From contig JAJPJS010000008.1 in NCBI GenBank assembly GCA_021324115.1, forward strand, positions 270,160 through 334,159: a stretch of DNA of 64,000 bases, read 5' to 3'. This DNA is from Nitrososphaerota archaeon (lineage in GTDB: Archaea > Thermoproteota > Nitrososphaeria > Conexivisphaerales > DTJL01). A model generated the notes under the pieces. It saw only the letters and a program-made list of their open reading frames with translations, searched no databases and was not told the origin of the DNA. A program made the translations under genes and the position numbers. Positions 35,208 to 43,049 of the stretch are shown in pieces; the stretch's first letter is position 1, and each line of letters starts with the position of its first letter.

Positions 35208-35672
35208 CTAGTAGCTGTAATCCAGCATCCCGAAGCTTGCGTATTTTTCGGCAGCCGTACTGAATGCTCTCGCTCTGGCCATACGGATTGCTTCTGAAAA
35301 GGAATCAGGCTCACCTTCGATTCCGAATCTTGAGCCGATTTCCCTGATTACAGCCTTTTCCAGAACCTCACCCGCAGGACCAAACAGCAGTCGGGAAACT
35401 GTGGACAGCTCTTCAGGATTCTTGGCCAGGTCTTCCTCGATCATGTCCCTCCTCAAGAGGCAGGAGTAAAACGCAATTCTTCCGGTGTTGCCGAGCGTCT
35501 TTATTACCCTGTCTACGCACATCACCACACCATCTCTGAAATTCTCCTCCACCCTTCTAACCGCATCTGATTCCGGACCATCCCGGACATGACCCAGGCC
35601 TTCATCTTCCCTGTCCATCCACTTCCATTCCCTGCGGGTGTGCATGTTGCGGTCCTCCTCTATTCCAATCAT
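35208..35672 (-). CDS. Hypothetical archaeal protein, possibly NitrOD5-like
   Basis: A 154-residue soluble protein. After a charged N-terminus it has GRIAFYSCLLRRDMIEEDLAKNPEELSTVSRLLFGPAGEVLEKAVIREIGSRFG and ends with SFSEAIRMARARAF. The pattern of a helix ending in ..LFGPGA..LEK.I.REI..FG resembles thaumarchaeal NitrOD5-type output domains as I remember them; a profile search is needed. A 27-bp promoter element at 35701-35727 is shared with the 36713-38587 gene, suggesting co-regulation. First ATG at 35672; a second at about residue 10. Confidence 0.6.
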   Translation of the reverse strand: MIGIEEDRNMHTRREWKWMDREDEGLGHVRDGPESDAVRRVEENFRDGVVMCVDRVIKTLGNTGRIAFYSCLLRRDMIEEDLAKNPEELSTVSRLLFGPAGEVLEKAVIREIGSRFGIEGEPDSFSEAIRMARARAFSTAAEKYASFGMLDYSY

Positions 35673-35700
35673 CCTACACAGTAGTAGACTGGTGATGACA

Positions 35701-35727
35701 TAAGGAACCCCATGGAACGACCGTTCC
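35701..35727 (-). promoter_or_regulatory. Shared promoter element with GGAACG-GTCGTTCC palindrome, copy 1
   Basis: On the minus strand it reads GGAACGGTCGTTCC, then ATGGGGTTCCTTA. It ends 29 nt before the start of the 154-residue gene. The copy at 38614-38640 matches at 25 of 27 positions and sits 27 nt before another minus-strand gene. Each copy has an inverted GGAAC/GTTCC pair plus a third GTTCC in direct repeat 10 nt on. Confidence 0.7.
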
Positions 35728-35823
35728 TAATTGATTTGGGACTCTTTTCGCCTTTGATGCAGCATGCACTCATCGGGTTTATATGACTCCCACGTGCCAC
35801 AGCCTCACCCAACGGTGTTTTGA

Positions 35824-36723
35824 TTGAGGCTGGCACAGCACCTCGCCATCTCCCTACCACTTCTGCTGCTAGTTCTGATCTACCCCATGACCGGCCAATT
35901 TGTTCATGCTGCAGTCCCGACTTCGACTACTTTGACGGTGTACGCGGATGGCCTGACTGTTGTGACCCAGACCTTAGGGCTGAATTCAAACCAAACCATA
36001 GTGTCGGCAACCCTAATTTCATCTGTTTTGTCGGATATCGTGGTTACGGACCAGGCTGGATCCGCACTTTACTACCAGATTTCAGGCAACAACATAACCG
36101 TTTACACGCTGGGGGCATCTGAAGCGGTCATCCACTATGAAACACAGAGCCTAACGAGCAAAGTCGGAACGGTGTGGTCCCTGCAATTCAGCACCGAGTA
36201 CAACACCACCGCGACCCTTCCAGTAGGTTCGACGCTGATTAACATCTCATCTGCCCCCGTTTCCATGACTACGATAAATCAAAGCCCGGTGCTCGTTCTT
36301 CTCCCCGGCCAGTACACCATCAGCTACGGCCTGCCCATCACCAACTCAACGGGCGGTGGCGGGACAGGGGGCGGGAATGGGACCAAGTCGGCAAACACGC
36401 CCTGGTATTCGTCATACGTTCTTGATTCTTCTGTAACCATTCTGGTGATTGCCGGCGCCGGTACGGGCCTCTTCTTTCTGCTGAGAAGACGCGGGAGCGG
36501 TGCCATAAATCTTGAAACAGACAACGAGCTTAGGCCTGATGACCTTAATGTTCTCCAATTTATCCAGGAGAAGGGTGGAAAGGTTCTGGAGCCTGAGATA
36601 AGGATTCGATTCGCGCTGCCGAAGACGTCTGCCTGGAGACAGATAAAGAGACTGGAGAGAATGGGGTACGTAAAGGTAACGAAAATAGGTTCACAGAATC
36701 AGGTTGAGCTTGTCAAGAAGTAG
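35824..36723 (+). CDS. Membrane-anchored winged-helix regulator-like protein
   Basis: A 299-residue protein with a signal peptide (RLAQHLAISLPLLLLVLIYP), an outside beta-rich domain of about 150 residues with many N-glycosylation sequons, a Gly/Asn linker, one TM helix (about 195-220, SSVTILVIAGAGTGLFFLLRRR) and a cytoplasmic winged helix (about 235-299; DDLNVLQFIQEKGGKVLEPEIRIRF, SAWRQIKRLERMGYVKVTKIG). It looks like a one-component sensor reading an external cue. TTG start at 35824, about 40 nt after TTTATATGAC. Flanking genes carry the shared element, so it is the obvious candidate binder. Confidence 0.8.
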   Translation: MRLAQHLAISLPLLLLVLIYPMTGQFVHAAVPTSTTLTVYADGLTVVTQTLGLNSNQTIVSATLISSVLSDIVVTDQAGSALYYQISGNNITVYTLGASEAVIHYETQSLTSKVGTVWSLQFSTEYNTTATLPVGSTLINISSAPVSMTTINQSPVLVLLPGQYTISYGLPITNSTGGGGTGGGNGTKSANTPWYSSYVLDSSVTILVIAGAGTGLFFLLRRRGSGAINLETDNELRPDDLNVLQFIQEKGGKVLEPEIRIRFALPKTSAWRQIKRLERMGYVKVTKIGSQNQVELVKK

Positions 36724-38587
36724 AGGAAGAAGCAGACATCTCTGCGGCGACATTCAGCTGAACGGACGCCTGTGCAAGTAGACTTGTGCCCTGCTGTATT
36801 TCACCCTCTTCAAACAGTTGCACCGACTGGGTGAGGCTGAGCTGGGCTGTTGCGAAGGCCGAGCTCAATGAAGATACATGATATGAAACCGAACCTACCG
36901 AGTCGGATACCGCGGTCACTGTCTCTGATGTCGTCGACTTCATCGAAGACTCCTGGGAAGAGAGTTTAGAATACTGAGTGCCAACCGCGGAATACGTGCT
37001 GTAAATGAGCGCCTGTGCGCCGGTGCTGAATTCGGCTGCGAGCGATGAAGTGGCTTCGGCTGAGAGCAGGGCCGACGAAAGAGTGGTCTGGACTGTGCTG
37101 TTCACGTATGTGCTTTCAGAGGAGTTGATCTGTGAGAGCGTGGAAACCAGTTGTGCGGTTGAGTTCACGGTTGCGACGACACCGGGAAGCTGGCCAGAGT
37201 AGGTGGATACGTCACCCTGCAGCTGAAGCAGCACGGACTGCTGGGCAAGAATGGTCGAAGAAGTGGCACTCCAGTCAGCCTTCGTGGTTGAAAGGAGGCC
37301 GTTCAAGGTCGTAAGCCAGGTGTTGAGCCATCCCGTGACGAGGCTCAGGATCGGCAGGCTCAGCAGGTAATTCAGTGTCGAGACCAGGTTGTTCATGGAG
37401 ACCAAAAATGCCTGAGCCGAGCTGTTTACAGAAGCCGAAGCGGCTTGAAATTCCAGATAGTACCCGGAGGTGCCGTTGAGCTGGGTGCTCGAAAATGAGC
37501 CGATCACCCCTCTCAGGTTGCTGAGTGAATTGTTGTATGCGACCAGGCTTGACTGAGTGGCGGTTATGTTTCCCAGCAGGATCTGGAGCAGGGAACCCGT
37601 CAGGTATGAACCCGCCTGGGAGTAAAGTGCCGTGAGATTGGCCGATACTTCGCCAAGGACGGACATGTCCACCCCTATCTGGGAGTTAAGTGAAGAGGAC
37701 AGAAACGCCCCTGCTTCGGTGTTTATGCCATTCGCAGTGGAAAGAAGACCGTCGGCGGCCGACGCCTGGGCCGCAGCGTAGGACTTCATCTTTGAGTATG
37801 TCTGGTTCAGCTGGAGAAGAAGATTCTCCTGAGCCGTAACCGAGGCGTTCACCGCGGATATCTCACCATTCAAGTTCTGCATTATGTAGGCCTCCACTCT
37901 GTCATAGTATGTAAATGAAGAAATCTGGGCGAGGAGTCCGCTCGCGAACTGCAGGTCCATCCTGGCCTTCGTTATCAAGGTAGAAAAGCCTGAAGAGTTC
38001 TCTGGAGATTTCACCAGAAGATTCTCCGCTTCAGATGCCTGAAGCCTGGCGTTAGAAATATACTGAGCCGCCTGCTGACAGTCTGCACTGAATGAAGCAT
38101 TTGATACGTTCTGCGCGGAGCAGGACGAGGATACATACCCAGACAGCAGCTGGGCAGTTTCATTGATTGAGAACAGAGACGATTGAGATATGCTCAGAGC
38201 TGCATATGATGAGACACCATTTTCCTCTATCAGTCTTCCTATCAATTCGGAGGCTGCGGTGAAATCACTCATCGCCGCCTTGGCGGCTGCAATGCCACCC
38301 GAAACATTGGTGCCGGTCTGAAGGCTGGACTGCGCCATAAGCAGAGAAGAGTTCCCCTCAACTATCAGATTATTAGCGGAGCTCACGTCTATACCATGTG
38401 AAAAAGCGAGTGAGGCAAGCGTCTTGACGTAGAGCTGCCCCTGGGTGGCGACCTGCACGTAAGCATCCAGCTGGGATTCTGCCTGCAGGTTCATTGAATG
38501 AACCGCCTCGGCCGGCGGCAGCATTACGCTCAGTACAAGAACCCCGATTATTGTCAAGCCGAAAATTGCGCCTTTTCTTCCTAGCAT
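36713..38587 (-). CDS. Large secreted Ser/Ala/Gln-rich helical protein
   Basis: A 624-residue protein with a signal peptide (MLGRKGAIFGLTIIGVLVLSVMLPPAEA) and no clear second TM helix. The mature part is rich in Ser, Ala, Thr, Leu and Gln with long amphipathic helices and many NxS/T sequons, suggesting an exported helical-bundle or coiled-coil surface protein. No known family recognised. The gene end overlaps the convergent winged-helix gene by 11 bp. Its promoter region holds the second copy of the GGAAC element 27 nt before the ATG. Confidence 0.75.
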   Translation of the reverse strand: MLGRKGAIFGLTIIGVLVLSVMLPPAEAVHSMNLQAESQLDAYVQVATQGQLYVKTLASLAFSHGIDVSSANNLIVEGNSSLLMAQSSLQTGTNVSGGIAAAKAAMSDFTAASELIGRLIEENGVSSYAALSISQSSLFSINETAQLLSGYVSSSCSAQNVSNASFSADCQQAAQYISNARLQASEAENLLVKSPENSSGFSTLITKARMDLQFASGLLAQISSFTYYDRVEAYIMQNLNGEISAVNASVTAQENLLLQLNQTYSKMKSYAAAQASAADGLLSTANGINTEAGAFLSSSLNSQIGVDMSVLGEVSANLTALYSQAGSYLTGSLLQILLGNITATQSSLVAYNNSLSNLRGVIGSFSSTQLNGTSGYYLEFQAASASVNSSAQAFLVSMNNLVSTLNYLLSLPILSLVTGWLNTWLTTLNGLLSTTKADWSATSSTILAQQSVLLQLQGDVSTYSGQLPGVVATVNSTAQLVSTLSQINSSESTYVNSTVQTTLSSALLSAEATSSLAAEFSTGAQALIYSTYSAVGTQYSKLSSQESSMKSTTSETVTAVSDSVGSVSYHVSSLSSAFATAQLSLTQSVQLFEEGEIQQGTSLLAQASVQLNVAAEMSASSSTS

Positions 38588-38613
38588 GGCTTATGGTATC
38601 CATGCAGATAAGA

Positions 38614-38640
38614 TAAGGAACCTCATGGAACGATCGTTCC
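38614..38640 (-). promoter_or_regulatory. Shared promoter element with GGAACGATCGTTCC palindrome, copy 2
   Basis: On the minus strand GGAACGATCGTTCC (perfect 14-bp palindrome), then ATGAGGTTCCTTA. It lies 27 nt upstream of the ATG at 38587, overlapping where an archaeal TATA/BRE would be, so binding would block or recruit the polymerase. Confidence 0.7.
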
Positions 38641-38970: not shown

Positions 38971-39915
38971 CTACATAATCGGGATGGCTAGAGTGTTATC
39001 AAGGGTTTCCGAAGAGTATGCCACCCCTACCTCCTTGACGAGTCCGGACTTCGAAAGTACCTCATGCAGGCTGGTCAGTTCTTGGTTTGATTCGAATGTG
39101 CAGAAGTAAGTGGAGCTGCCAACAACGTTACGGTAGAGCTGAAAGCATCTGTCGTTCAAAAGTGAATCGAGCCTGGCATCGATCCTGGCGCGGTCACTCT
39201 CGTTGAAAATTGCAGCGATTATCGCGACAAGCGAGCCGGTTATTGCGCCTGTGTTGATGACAGGTTCTATCTGAAAGATCTTCAGAGAGGCCAACGTTTT
39301 CAGCCTGTTCCGAACTCTTCTCCTGCTGCAGCCGAGCATCTCAGCGATACTTGTGATCTTCATGAACGGGTCACTTCTAAGCAGGTCAAGGATTCTCAGG
39401 TCGAATACATTCAGCGACCGTACTGAAGTCTGACAGCGTGCCTGAAGTGTACGAACAACTGTAAAATCTCCACACACCTCTTTCACAAGCTCCAGTTCAC
39501 GTTTGAGGTCACCCTCTCCTCTATGGAATAAATGCAGGACAGCATACTTGTCCAAAGCTGAACCCCCCGCCGGCAAATCGGAGCTCGACTTTCCCAGGAA
39601 GGTGTACGGAAGAGGCTGGACAAGGTGGACCGTTTCTATGAAATCGAACAGTGAAATCTTCGAGGCGAGCTTATCCTGAAAGGTGTTTGTGCATTGCACC
39701 GAAATGATAGATTCTTTCAACCCCAGACAGGATGGCTCGATTACGATCCTGAATTTTTTTACCACACCGCGTGGAACAAGAAGGTCAAGCCTTGCCTTCA
39801 CCGCCCTTGGGCTAACTCCGAGGCCCTTCGCCATGGCCCAGTACGTCGGCCTTTCATTCAAACCGCTCTGTGGCCACTGTAAATACCTCAGAACCATGCG
39901 GGTAAGGTCGTCCAT
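38971..39915 (-). CDS. Transcriptional regulator with two AsnC-type winged helices
   Basis: A 314-residue protein built as two halves. Half 1: winged helix at about 1-55 (LTRMVLRYLQWP, YWAMAKGLGVSPRAVKARLDLLVPRGVVKKF) followed by about 100 residues of alpha/beta fold. Half 2: winged helix at about 170-225 (NVFDLRILDLLRSDPFMKITSIAEMLGCSRRRVRNRLKTL) followed by LVAIIAAIF and FCTFESNQELTSL, which resemble a RAM-like effector domain. Tandem Lrp-like proteins occur in archaea; the target and ligand are unknown. A TATA-like GGTTAAAAAT lies about 28 nt upstream of the ATG. Confidence 0.8.
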   Translation of the reverse strand: MDDLTRMVLRYLQWPQSGLNERPTYWAMAKGLGVSPRAVKARLDLLVPRGVVKKFRIVIEPSCLGLKESIISVQCTNTFQDKLASKISLFDFIETVHLVQPLPYTFLGKSSSDLPAGGSALDKYAVLHLFHRGEGDLKRELELVKEVCGDFTVVRTLQARCQTSVRSLNVFDLRILDLLRSDPFMKITSIAEMLGCSRRRVRNRLKTLASLKIFQIEPVINTGAITGSLVAIIAAIFNESDRARIDARLDSLLNDRCFQLYRNVVGSSTYFCTFESNQELTSLHEVLSKSGLVKEVGVAYSSETLDNTLAIPIM

Positions 39916-40817: not shown

Positions 40818-43049
40818 TTGATTCGAAGAGGGCTGGGAAAAGGGGCGTCCATAGGTGCTGTTCTTGTAGCTGCAATCCTCGTCATAAGCATATTTTTTGT
40901 CGTAACGACATTTCGCACCACACACGTCCAGGAGCCGGTCTGCACATCGTCCGATCCAAGGGTGGCAGACCCTAAGGCTCCCCATGGCCTTTTCGTCAAT
41001 GCGGCGAACAGCCCCCAATCGCTGAGCAATGAAAGCGAGATCCTGAAGTACATTCTACCCGACTCCACAGTGTGCGGCGCGAACCTGATCATACCTTGGA
41101 GCAGCATCGATATGGGACCTGGCGCAAACCCCAGGTACAACTGGGCGTTTGTGGATCAGTCCGCAGAACCCTGGATAAAGGCGGGCAAGATTGTCAATTT
41201 CATCGTCTGGGGTGCGGCGGAGCAGACATCACAGGAGTACAACGGAACCTCAATGACACCTTCATACGTCCTTAAACAGGTTGATACCGTGAAATGTGGC
41301 CCTGACCCCATCACTCCTGTATACTGGGAGGCTGGCTACCTTGACAATTACGAAGCTTTCATCCAGGCCCTTGTCCAGCATTACGGCAACGCGCCCTGGC
41401 TCGGGTACATCCGCTTTGGAATCGGGACCGGGGGAGAGGACTACCCGGAAAACGGATTCGACCTGTCTCCCTGCCTTTCACTCTGGCAATCCCATGGTTA
41501 TTCGATGGAGCTCTGGCAGAACTACTCGCTTCAGCTCATGAAATTCGAATACAGCCTGGGTTCGCCCAAGACGATACTAGTTGGTCTGAATCAGATACAG
41601 GGTCAGAACGGGGTGGCGGATGCGGTCGCAACTGCCGCGGTGAGGTATGGGTTCGGCTTTGGAATCCAGGGCTTTTCAATTAATCAGGAAAAAGTCAACT
41701 CTTCGGGCTCTCCATGTTACGCGGACTGGTGCGCCCTTTTCAAAGAATACGCAGGTAAGGTACCACTTGAGCTTCAAACCACAACACACACGTATCCAGA
41801 CGGCACGGGCGTCGGCTCGCTGGTCCAGCTGGCTCCCTTTGGTCTCGCCTCAGGCGCCCAGATCTTCGAGCTTTACCCACAGGAATGGCTCATCGCAGAT
41901 GATCCATCATTTCCTGGATACACCCAGTATCATGCGGCATACTCAGAGGCGCTTGACCAGATGGCCTCCGTAGTTGGATATTCTGCATCGAATGGAACTT
42001 CTTTTTCACTTGGATACTCGGTCCCTCCTTACACCGTGGTTGGCAACAGAATACTGGACGGCTGGAACAGAACCTTCGTTCCATATGGCGTCGAGCTTCC
42101 CAGCCTCTGGATTCCCAACTGGCACAACAATCAGCTCATGCAGCTCGATGCCAGCATACTCGAGAATCAGACTGTTTACTCGGATGCCAGATATTTCTGG
42201 CACTCGAATACTGTGGTTGTCAAGGTGGCTTCTGAGGACCTGTTCGACCAGTCTCCATATGATGCTTCCTACCTTCATATCATAGATACCATCGTGAGCG
42301 AGACGCATGATTATGATCTTAACCTTATAATCGCCCTCCAGTATGAATCGACCACAAAACAGCCCCTGCCGACTCAGGATAGTGAAAGCTTCTGGAAGCT
42401 TCTGTCATCAAGATATTATAACGATTCATGGGTGTTCTTCGACCTGTTCAACGAACCTCGGAGTCCGTTTGGTGTGGACAACTCGACAGCGTGGAACATG
42501 TGGAGGGATGGAGGGACATATGCGGGAACAAACTACATCGGAATGCAGAACCTCGTGGACATCGTCCGTTCAAACCATGCACAGAACCTTGTGTTCGTAG
42601 ACGGCCTTGCAGCGGGAGAAGACCTCAATGGAGTTCCGGGGCACATGCTGAGCGGTCAAAACATAATCTATGCGGTTCATCCTTACTTTGGTCCTTTACA
42701 TGATAATGAGAGTGAATGGAACTTCTGGTTTGGTGACGCGGCCAAATCCATCGACGCGCCGGTCGTCGCCGATGAATGGGGAGAGTATCAGTCATCGACG
42801 CATGGGGAATGTATTGCATCTGCCCCGGTTCTGGTCCCTCAATTTCTGCAGTACTTGAAAGATCTTAACATTGGTGTGATTGGATATGGGCTCTACCCCG
42901 GGATACTGATCAGGGGCTGGAATTTTACGGCCCCCACTTCGTTTGACCAATCGCCATATACCTGTCCGGACACCACCTTCCCGAATCTGAACACGGATGC
43001 TCAGGGGGTGGGCGTGCTTCTTGTATCATACTTCAGCGCAAACGACTGA
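40818..43049 (+). CDS. Membrane-anchored extracellular glycosidase with two barrel domains (C-terminal GH5-like)
   Basis: A 743-residue protein with an N-terminal signal-anchor (about 9-29, ASIGAVLVAAILVISIFFVVT). Residues about 45-400 look like a first barrel with LGYIRFGIGTGGEDYPENGF, whose Glu near 207 could be an acid/base. Residues about 440-730 are a GH5-like barrel: acid/base Glu in VFFDLFNEPRSPF (about 544) and nucleophile Glu in VVADEWGEY (about 652), with YAVHPYFGP between. Many sequons support extracellular location. It probably cleaves a beta-glucan or similar polysaccharide outside the cell. Start TTG at 40818. Confidence 0.8.
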   Translation: MIRRGLGKGASIGAVLVAAILVISIFFVVTTFRTTHVQEPVCTSSDPRVADPKAPHGLFVNAANSPQSLSNESEILKYILPDSTVCGANLIIPWSSIDMGPGANPRYNWAFVDQSAEPWIKAGKIVNFIVWGAAEQTSQEYNGTSMTPSYVLKQVDTVKCGPDPITPVYWEAGYLDNYEAFIQALVQHYGNAPWLGYIRFGIGTGGEDYPENGFDLSPCLSLWQSHGYSMELWQNYSLQLMKFEYSLGSPKTILVGLNQIQGQNGVADAVATAAVRYGFGFGIQGFSINQEKVNSSGSPCYADWCALFKEYAGKVPLELQTTTHTYPDGTGVGSLVQLAPFGLASGAQIFELYPQEWLIADDPSFPGYTQYHAAYSEALDQMASVVGYSASNGTSFSLGYSVPPYTVVGNRILDGWNRTFVPYGVELPSLWIPNWHNNQLMQLDASILENQTVYSDARYFWHSNTVVVKVASEDLFDQSPYDASYLHIIDTIVSETHDYDLNLIIALQYESTTKQPLPTQDSESFWKLLSSRYYNDSWVFFDLFNEPRSPFGVDNSTAWNMWRDGGTYAGTNYIGMQNLVDIVRSNHAQNLVFVDGLAAGEDLNGVPGHMLSGQNIIYAVHPYFGPLHDNESEWNFWFGDAAKSIDAPVVADEWGEYQSSTHGECIASAPVLVPQFLQYLKDLNIGVIGYGLYPGILIRGWNFTAPTSFDQSPYTCPDTTFPNLNTDAQGVGVLLVSYFSAND

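Follow-up and report, generated by a model that had tools for sequence, protein, structure and literature searches.

Does a membrane-anchored winged-helix protein control the genes that flank it in an uncultivated archaeon, and if so, through which DNA sites? The question arises from a 64,000-nucleotide stretch of a Nitrososphaerota genome (hereafter, the window), where an initial annotation had noted a short element repeated before two minus-strand genes and, between these, a plus-strand gene for a putative membrane-bound regulator. To our knowledge, little is known about cell-surface regulation in Nitrososphaeria, including the abundant marine and soil ammonia oxidisers.

A repeated element of three half-sites at two promoters

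The two copies of the element, at 35701–35727 and 38614–38640, are identical at 25 of 27 positions, and comparison within the window extends the likeness to 34 nt at 88%. On the coding strand, the 34-nt element reads GGAACGnTCGTTCC-ATGRG-GTTCC-TTAT, the TATA-like TTAT following directly in both copies. Copy A (35694..35727, minus strand; GGAACGGTCGTTCC-ATGGG-GTTCC-TTATGTCATC), a candidate operator whose palindrome is followed on the plus strand by TAAT, lies upstream of the gene for a 154-aa protein (35208..35672, minus strand). Copy B (38607..38640, minus strand; GGAACGATCGTTCC-ATGAG-GTTCC-TTATCTTATC), whose orthologous positions are kept in relatives, lies upstream of the gene for a secreted, all-helical and rod-like protein of 624 aa, here termed S624 (36713..38587, minus strand). 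The 27-nt copies end 26 nt before the S624 start codon and 28 nt before that of the 154-aa gene.

With three mismatches allowed, the pattern GGAACGNTCGTTCCATGRGGTTCC has two matches in the window and none in 100 of 100 shuffled sequences, and a search of the 2.14-Mb window genome with a 28-nt pattern at the same tolerance returned these two places only, confirming the near-identical pair as unique in the genome. The third GTTCC reported by the initial annotation is present in both copies; its layout, however, is better read not as a palindrome with a stray GTTCC but as three GTTCC half-sites, two of them forming an inverted pair and the third repeated directly 10 bp further along, with the group abutting the TATA box. 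All 10 promoters measured (nine of the S624 type and that of the 154-aa gene) have the last GTTCC ending 29–31 nt ahead of the start codon. Base composition of the window ORFs was so noisy that it contributed little on the TATA position. Chance or a dispersed repeat as the source of the element was considered and ruled out by its uniqueness in the genome, the zero shuffle matches and its restriction to particular gene types. Because the palindromes of relatives are confined to promoters (see below) and the distance to the start codon is fixed, the element is, judged from sequence, a real operator-like site.

A single-pass membrane protein with a C-terminal winged helix

The gene between the two element-bearing genes (35824..36723, plus strand), convergent with S624, starts with TTG and encodes 299 aa; homology searches recovered homologues in 27 of the 41 genomes searched, its own included. 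Its probable TATA box, TTTATATG, would lie at 35778..35785 (plus strand), ~50 bp beyond element A. An AF2 model agrees with the architecture first proposed: an N-terminal hydrophobic helix, an outer beta-rich domain (residues 31–169, pLDDT ~90), a single transmembrane helix (205–222) and a C-terminal winged helix (238–296, pLDDT ~90). The model and profile comparison delimit the outer part as an extracytoplasmic beta-sandwich domain of about residues 28–172 (35905..36339, plus strand), which hhalign (E 6e-35) shows to be homologous to its counterpart in the Nitrososphaeraceae forms. Against PDB structures, its best matches were OST subunits and M1-aminopeptidases, which at E 6e-7 and worse and TM-scores below 0.4 are too weak for a ligand to be named; a PDB sequence search gave no match. 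The transmembrane helix (36436..36489, plus strand), modelled at low pLDDT, is strongly hydrophobic and followed by RRRG, so that by the positive-inside rule the C-terminus is predicted to be cytoplasmic.

The predicted cytoplasmic winged helix (36529..36720, plus strand) combines a recognition helix, KTSAWRQIKRLER, with a wing, GSQNQ, both nearly invariant among close orthologues. Its Pfam matches, HTH_24 and DUF7343, are both below the cut-offs; the DUF7343 winged helix (PF24034) nevertheless ranks with the best matches that the C-terminus has at domain level, where the window protein scores 18.6 against a gathering cut-off of 27.6, which a homologue (L009) passes with 30.4. The idea that a single specificity residue (Q273, in WRQIKRLER) lies behind the motif was dropped, as same-order genomes with WRAIKRLER also carry GTTCC half-sites.

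Conservation of element and linkage in close relatives

A profile scan of genome contigs identified 14 loci with clear regulator orthologues in Thaumarchaeota/Nitrososphaerales MAGs; in the soil I.1c-like relatives, these are 43–53% identical over most of the protein, with higher values across short fragments. Such named relatives place the window in the class Nitrososphaeria; its order is probably Conexivisphaerales. In the I.1c-like loci, an S624 orthologue lies convergent with and directly after the regulator gene and, wherever the contig extends that far, the gene for a DUF4382 secreted protein lies upstream of S624 (PF14321, cut-off 25; L040, 39.4; L047, 33.0; L045, 25.4, all passing). 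The S624 genes are preceded by the element and the DUF4382 genes by a GTTCC-rich variant of it; the regulator's own promoter in these close relatives is without the element. All 21 GGAAC-N3-6-GTTCC palindromes in 97.6 kb of I.1c-like loci fall at S624 or DUF4382 promoters, with none elsewhere and none for a control pattern, and the exact element was found in 12 of 400 genomes of the class, its reversed control in none. The expectation of the initial annotation that the element would recur before orthologous genes, and would not be scattered over unrelated loci, is thus borne out. The fold of S624 found no PDB match at E ≤ 0.001, the weaker hits being for the most part proteins of coiled-coil and rod-like type.

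Across family f11, the regulator and the element occur together in 15 genomes, the element alone in none, the regulator alone in five, in which no element was found, and neither in 26 (Fisher P = 3e-8); a count of mismatch-search matches only gives 14, 1, 6 and 25 (Fisher P = 2e-6), both P values being only indicative, as most of our Fisher counts draw on related, non-independent genomes. The first count includes G310, whose spacer is longer, and omits G406, where a two-mismatch relative of the element, GGAGCGTACGATCCTGAGGGTTCC (G406:C74:5777), recurs at G399:C7:89267 and G199:C31:27585 and was taken as unrelated. Even where the gene order has changed (G310, G348 and G401), a helical gene still adjoins the regulator, and the linkage is also seen in families f4 and f2.

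The 154-aa gene appears as a second local target in the window genome only: a search upstream of its homologues found no element. The protein itself has no NitrOD5 match and is weakly NitrOD5-like through homologues, one of which (L024) scores 19.6 against the NitrOD5 (PF11537) cut-off of 27.

Half-sites at DUF4382 genes away from the regulator

A DUF4382 gene on another contig of the window genome has GGAACAATCGTTCCTATGTTCC upstream, and where genomes of the same order have the regulator, their DUF4382 promoters bear GTTCC/GTTTC half-sites at a ~10-bp period beside the TATA box; in G004, these are still present although regulator and DUF4382 gene lie more than 300 kb apart. Half-sites occur at 10 of 11 DUF4382 promoters in genomes with the membrane winged-helix protein and at 0 of 9 in genomes without it (Fisher P = 1e-4), the latter figure leaving out G011, a 55% complete genome with an array and no regulator found. 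No GTTCC half-sites were found at the DUF4382 promoters of the regulator-less genomes G001, G002, G003 and five of family f5, and one DUF4382 gene of G006 is without them despite the regulator. This pattern links regulator and motif in trans, although the genomes are related and the P value is only indicative. The compact regulon of neighbours proposed at first is too narrow, since half-sites are also present at DUF4382 genes a long way from the regulator.

As a separate observation, DUF4382 promoters of regulator-less genomes carry GTTCAAAAA or TTGAAC-like motifs rather than GTTCC arrays (upstream regions of L218, L219, L220, L223 and L225–L227; L239, G000:C2:64137-65192), and the second DUF4382 gene of the window genome shows a mixture of both motif kinds. 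These motifs possibly belong to a sister regulator with shifted specificity.

Arrays in Nitrosopumilales and Nitrososphaeraceae

Among 66 loci, mostly of Nitrosopumilales, a GTTYC array precedes the regulator operon in 61, against 0–11 loci for control motifs. The usual Nitrosopumilales array is GTTCC-n7-GTTCC-n8-GTTYC-n5-(GTTCC or GTCCC)-TCATWAA, and it is only in this order that half-sites lie upstream of the regulator's own operon. The operon opens with a small soluble winged-helix gene, followed by that of the membrane winged-helix protein and, in 58 of the 66 loci, by a gene for a protein of 197–489 aa, those inspected being secreted and helical. Together with the I.1c-like relatives and the altered gene orders, this upholds the conserved linkage of regulator and secreted protein anticipated by the initial annotation. 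The small (95–99 aa) and membrane winged-helix proteins are related (30% identity, E 1e-10).

The Nitrososphaeraceae regulator has a helical segment between its beta domain, homologous to that of the window protein, and the transmembrane helix. Three Nitrososphaeraceae elements do not adjoin the membrane regulator; by the high end of minus-strand matches, they are L181 9617, L183 422 and L182 9601. Two of them precede the gene for a secreted helical protein of 440 aa, different from the others, and the third precedes that for a small soluble winged helix. Another membrane-anchored, ArsR-like winged helix is encoded nearby in L181. Profile comparison gave no support for homology between S624 and either the Nitrosopumilales helical protein or the helical insert of the Nitrososphaeraceae regulator; across the families, the helical proteins are not demonstrably homologous, and "the same kind" is meant here as description.

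Relation to known membrane-bound and surface-gene regulators

With a DNA-binding domain (238–296) and a transmembrane region (205–222) in one polypeptide, the window protein has the combination that defines transmembrane transcription regulators (TTRs); it differs from ToxR and CadC, whose DNA-binding domain is N-terminal, in that its own is C-terminal. A TTR census describes ToxR/CadC-like proteins with both parts in one chain as 56% single-pass and widespread in archaea (PMC10269533); we found in it no operator or regulon for their Nitrososphaeria forms.

The closest analogue is ArnR of Sulfolobus acidocaldarius, like ArnR1 a membrane-bound one-component HTH regulator of surface-structure genes; the flaB promoter carries its operator as inverted-repeat boxes of the form TCGAC-N5-GTCGA, and binding needs two boxes (PMC6396743). 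The likeness thus spans a membrane-bound archaeal HTH regulator, surface genes and inverted-repeat boxes, binding by the window regulator being predicted. The order of parts, however, is reversed: in ArnR, the HTH is N-terminal and the chain continues with a HAMP/sensing domain and ends in two transmembrane helices, whereas the window protein has an outer beta domain and one transmembrane helix after its signal helix, a C-terminal winged helix and, as its putative operator, GTTCC half-sites. Operator and targets differ as well, and ArnR is without a described secreted helical partner. A further parallel is EarA of Methanococcus, an activator of winged-helix type for which several short repeats lie upstream of a surface-appendage operon's promoter and mediate its action (PMC6396743, PMC13286277), although its repeat, TACATA, is different; EarA is not homologous to ArnR (PMC6396743). 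The initial annotation knew of no described system with these parts, which was too broad, as membrane-anchored archaeal surface-gene regulators with inverted-repeat boxes have been described (ArnR, PMC6396743); it stands insofar as the literature searched yielded no account of a regulator so built, with such an operator and regulon. TTRs as a kind are already known and ArnR is a functional precedent; what seems new is the architecture, the operator and the regulon.

Proposed mechanism and alternatives

The plus-strand gene would thus encode a single-pass transmembrane one-component transcription regulator, and we consider it probable that it controls surface-protein genes, more likely by activation, from phased GTTCC half-sites next to the TATA box. 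Its extracytoplasmic beta-sandwich domain would sense the state of the cell envelope, and we infer that the half-sites, spaced by roughly one turn of the helix immediately upstream of the TATA box and at the place of the BRE, are bound by the cytoplasmic winged helix. Its targets would be the adjacent helical S624, DUF4382 proteins and, in the window genome, the 154-aa NitrOD5-like gene. Owing to the linkage, and to the helical segment in the regulator ectodomain of some lineages, the adjacent helical protein is probably also the signal partner, and might therefore be output and signal partner at once, in a feedback arrangement. More tentatively, this could be an ancestral envelope-sensing regulon of Nitrososphaeria, marine ammonia oxidisers included, in which the transmembrane winged-helix regulator would sense how much of its own secreted helical partner is present outside the cytoplasm, or in what state, and would feed back via phased GTTCC half-sites on the partner and other surface-protein genes; we regard this extension as plausible without counting it as the likelier outcome.

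The alternative that survives best keeps regulator and operator and reverses the sign: the half-site abutting the TATA box would block TFB/TBP until an envelope signal releases the repressor. The last GTTCC sits at the BRE position, a classic site for archaeal repressors, and we hold repression to be a real though lesser possibility. Against it, the phased half-sites reach 30–60 bp upstream, the usual territory of activators, and the nearest functional analogues, ArnR and EarA, are activators (PMC6396743, PMC13286277). Activation is modestly favoured by this upstream reach and by the likeness to ArnR and EarA; that EarA is bypassed by BRE mutations (PMC13286277) offers a parallel for an activator acting at such promoters.

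The chief competing candidate for the binder is a soluble winged-helix protein of small size: the GTTCC arrays would be bound by another, soluble regulator, most plausibly the 95–99-aa protein, with the membrane protein co-regulated or acting as a modulator. This protein heads the array-bearing Nitrosopumilales operon, adjoins a Nitrososphaeraceae element and is related to the membrane winged helix. It has, however, no match in the window or in the fetched I.1c-family and same-order loci, where only the membrane winged-helix protein is linked to an element-bearing gene, and within the order and f11 the presence of the element follows the membrane protein; we judge the soluble binder unlikely. 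A reading of the repeats as a variant of the core promoter, or as a dispersed or mobile repeat, which their place directly beside the TATA box and the two near-identical copies in one locus might suggest, is excluded in practice by the count of only two genomic copies, the recurrence at the same gene types across deep divergence and the phased multi-site structure.

Binding by the membrane protein itself, if true, would provide a case in which a protein gains access to DNA while anchored in the membrane, at a defined operator beside the core promoter, and the system looks like a widespread, so far undescribed route by which the cell surface controls its own genes. The half-site array is conserved enough for target genes to be predicted across the class; the regulon can therefore be listed and tested in cultivated Nitrosopumilus and Nitrososphaera.

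Other genes at the locus

NitrOD5-like proteins of ~105 aa (L024–L035) are widespread, one of them (L026) beside a KaiC-like ATPase, and may serve commonly in Nitrososphaeria as a small output module. Adjoining S624 in the window is a gene for a 314-aa protein with tandem Lrp/AsnC-type domains (38971–39915, minus strand); it was not found near S624 in relatives. Further along, at 40818–43049 (plus strand), the window encodes a secreted protein of 743 aa, archaeal in this case, in which Pfam identifies a GH5 cellulase domain (E 2e-17).
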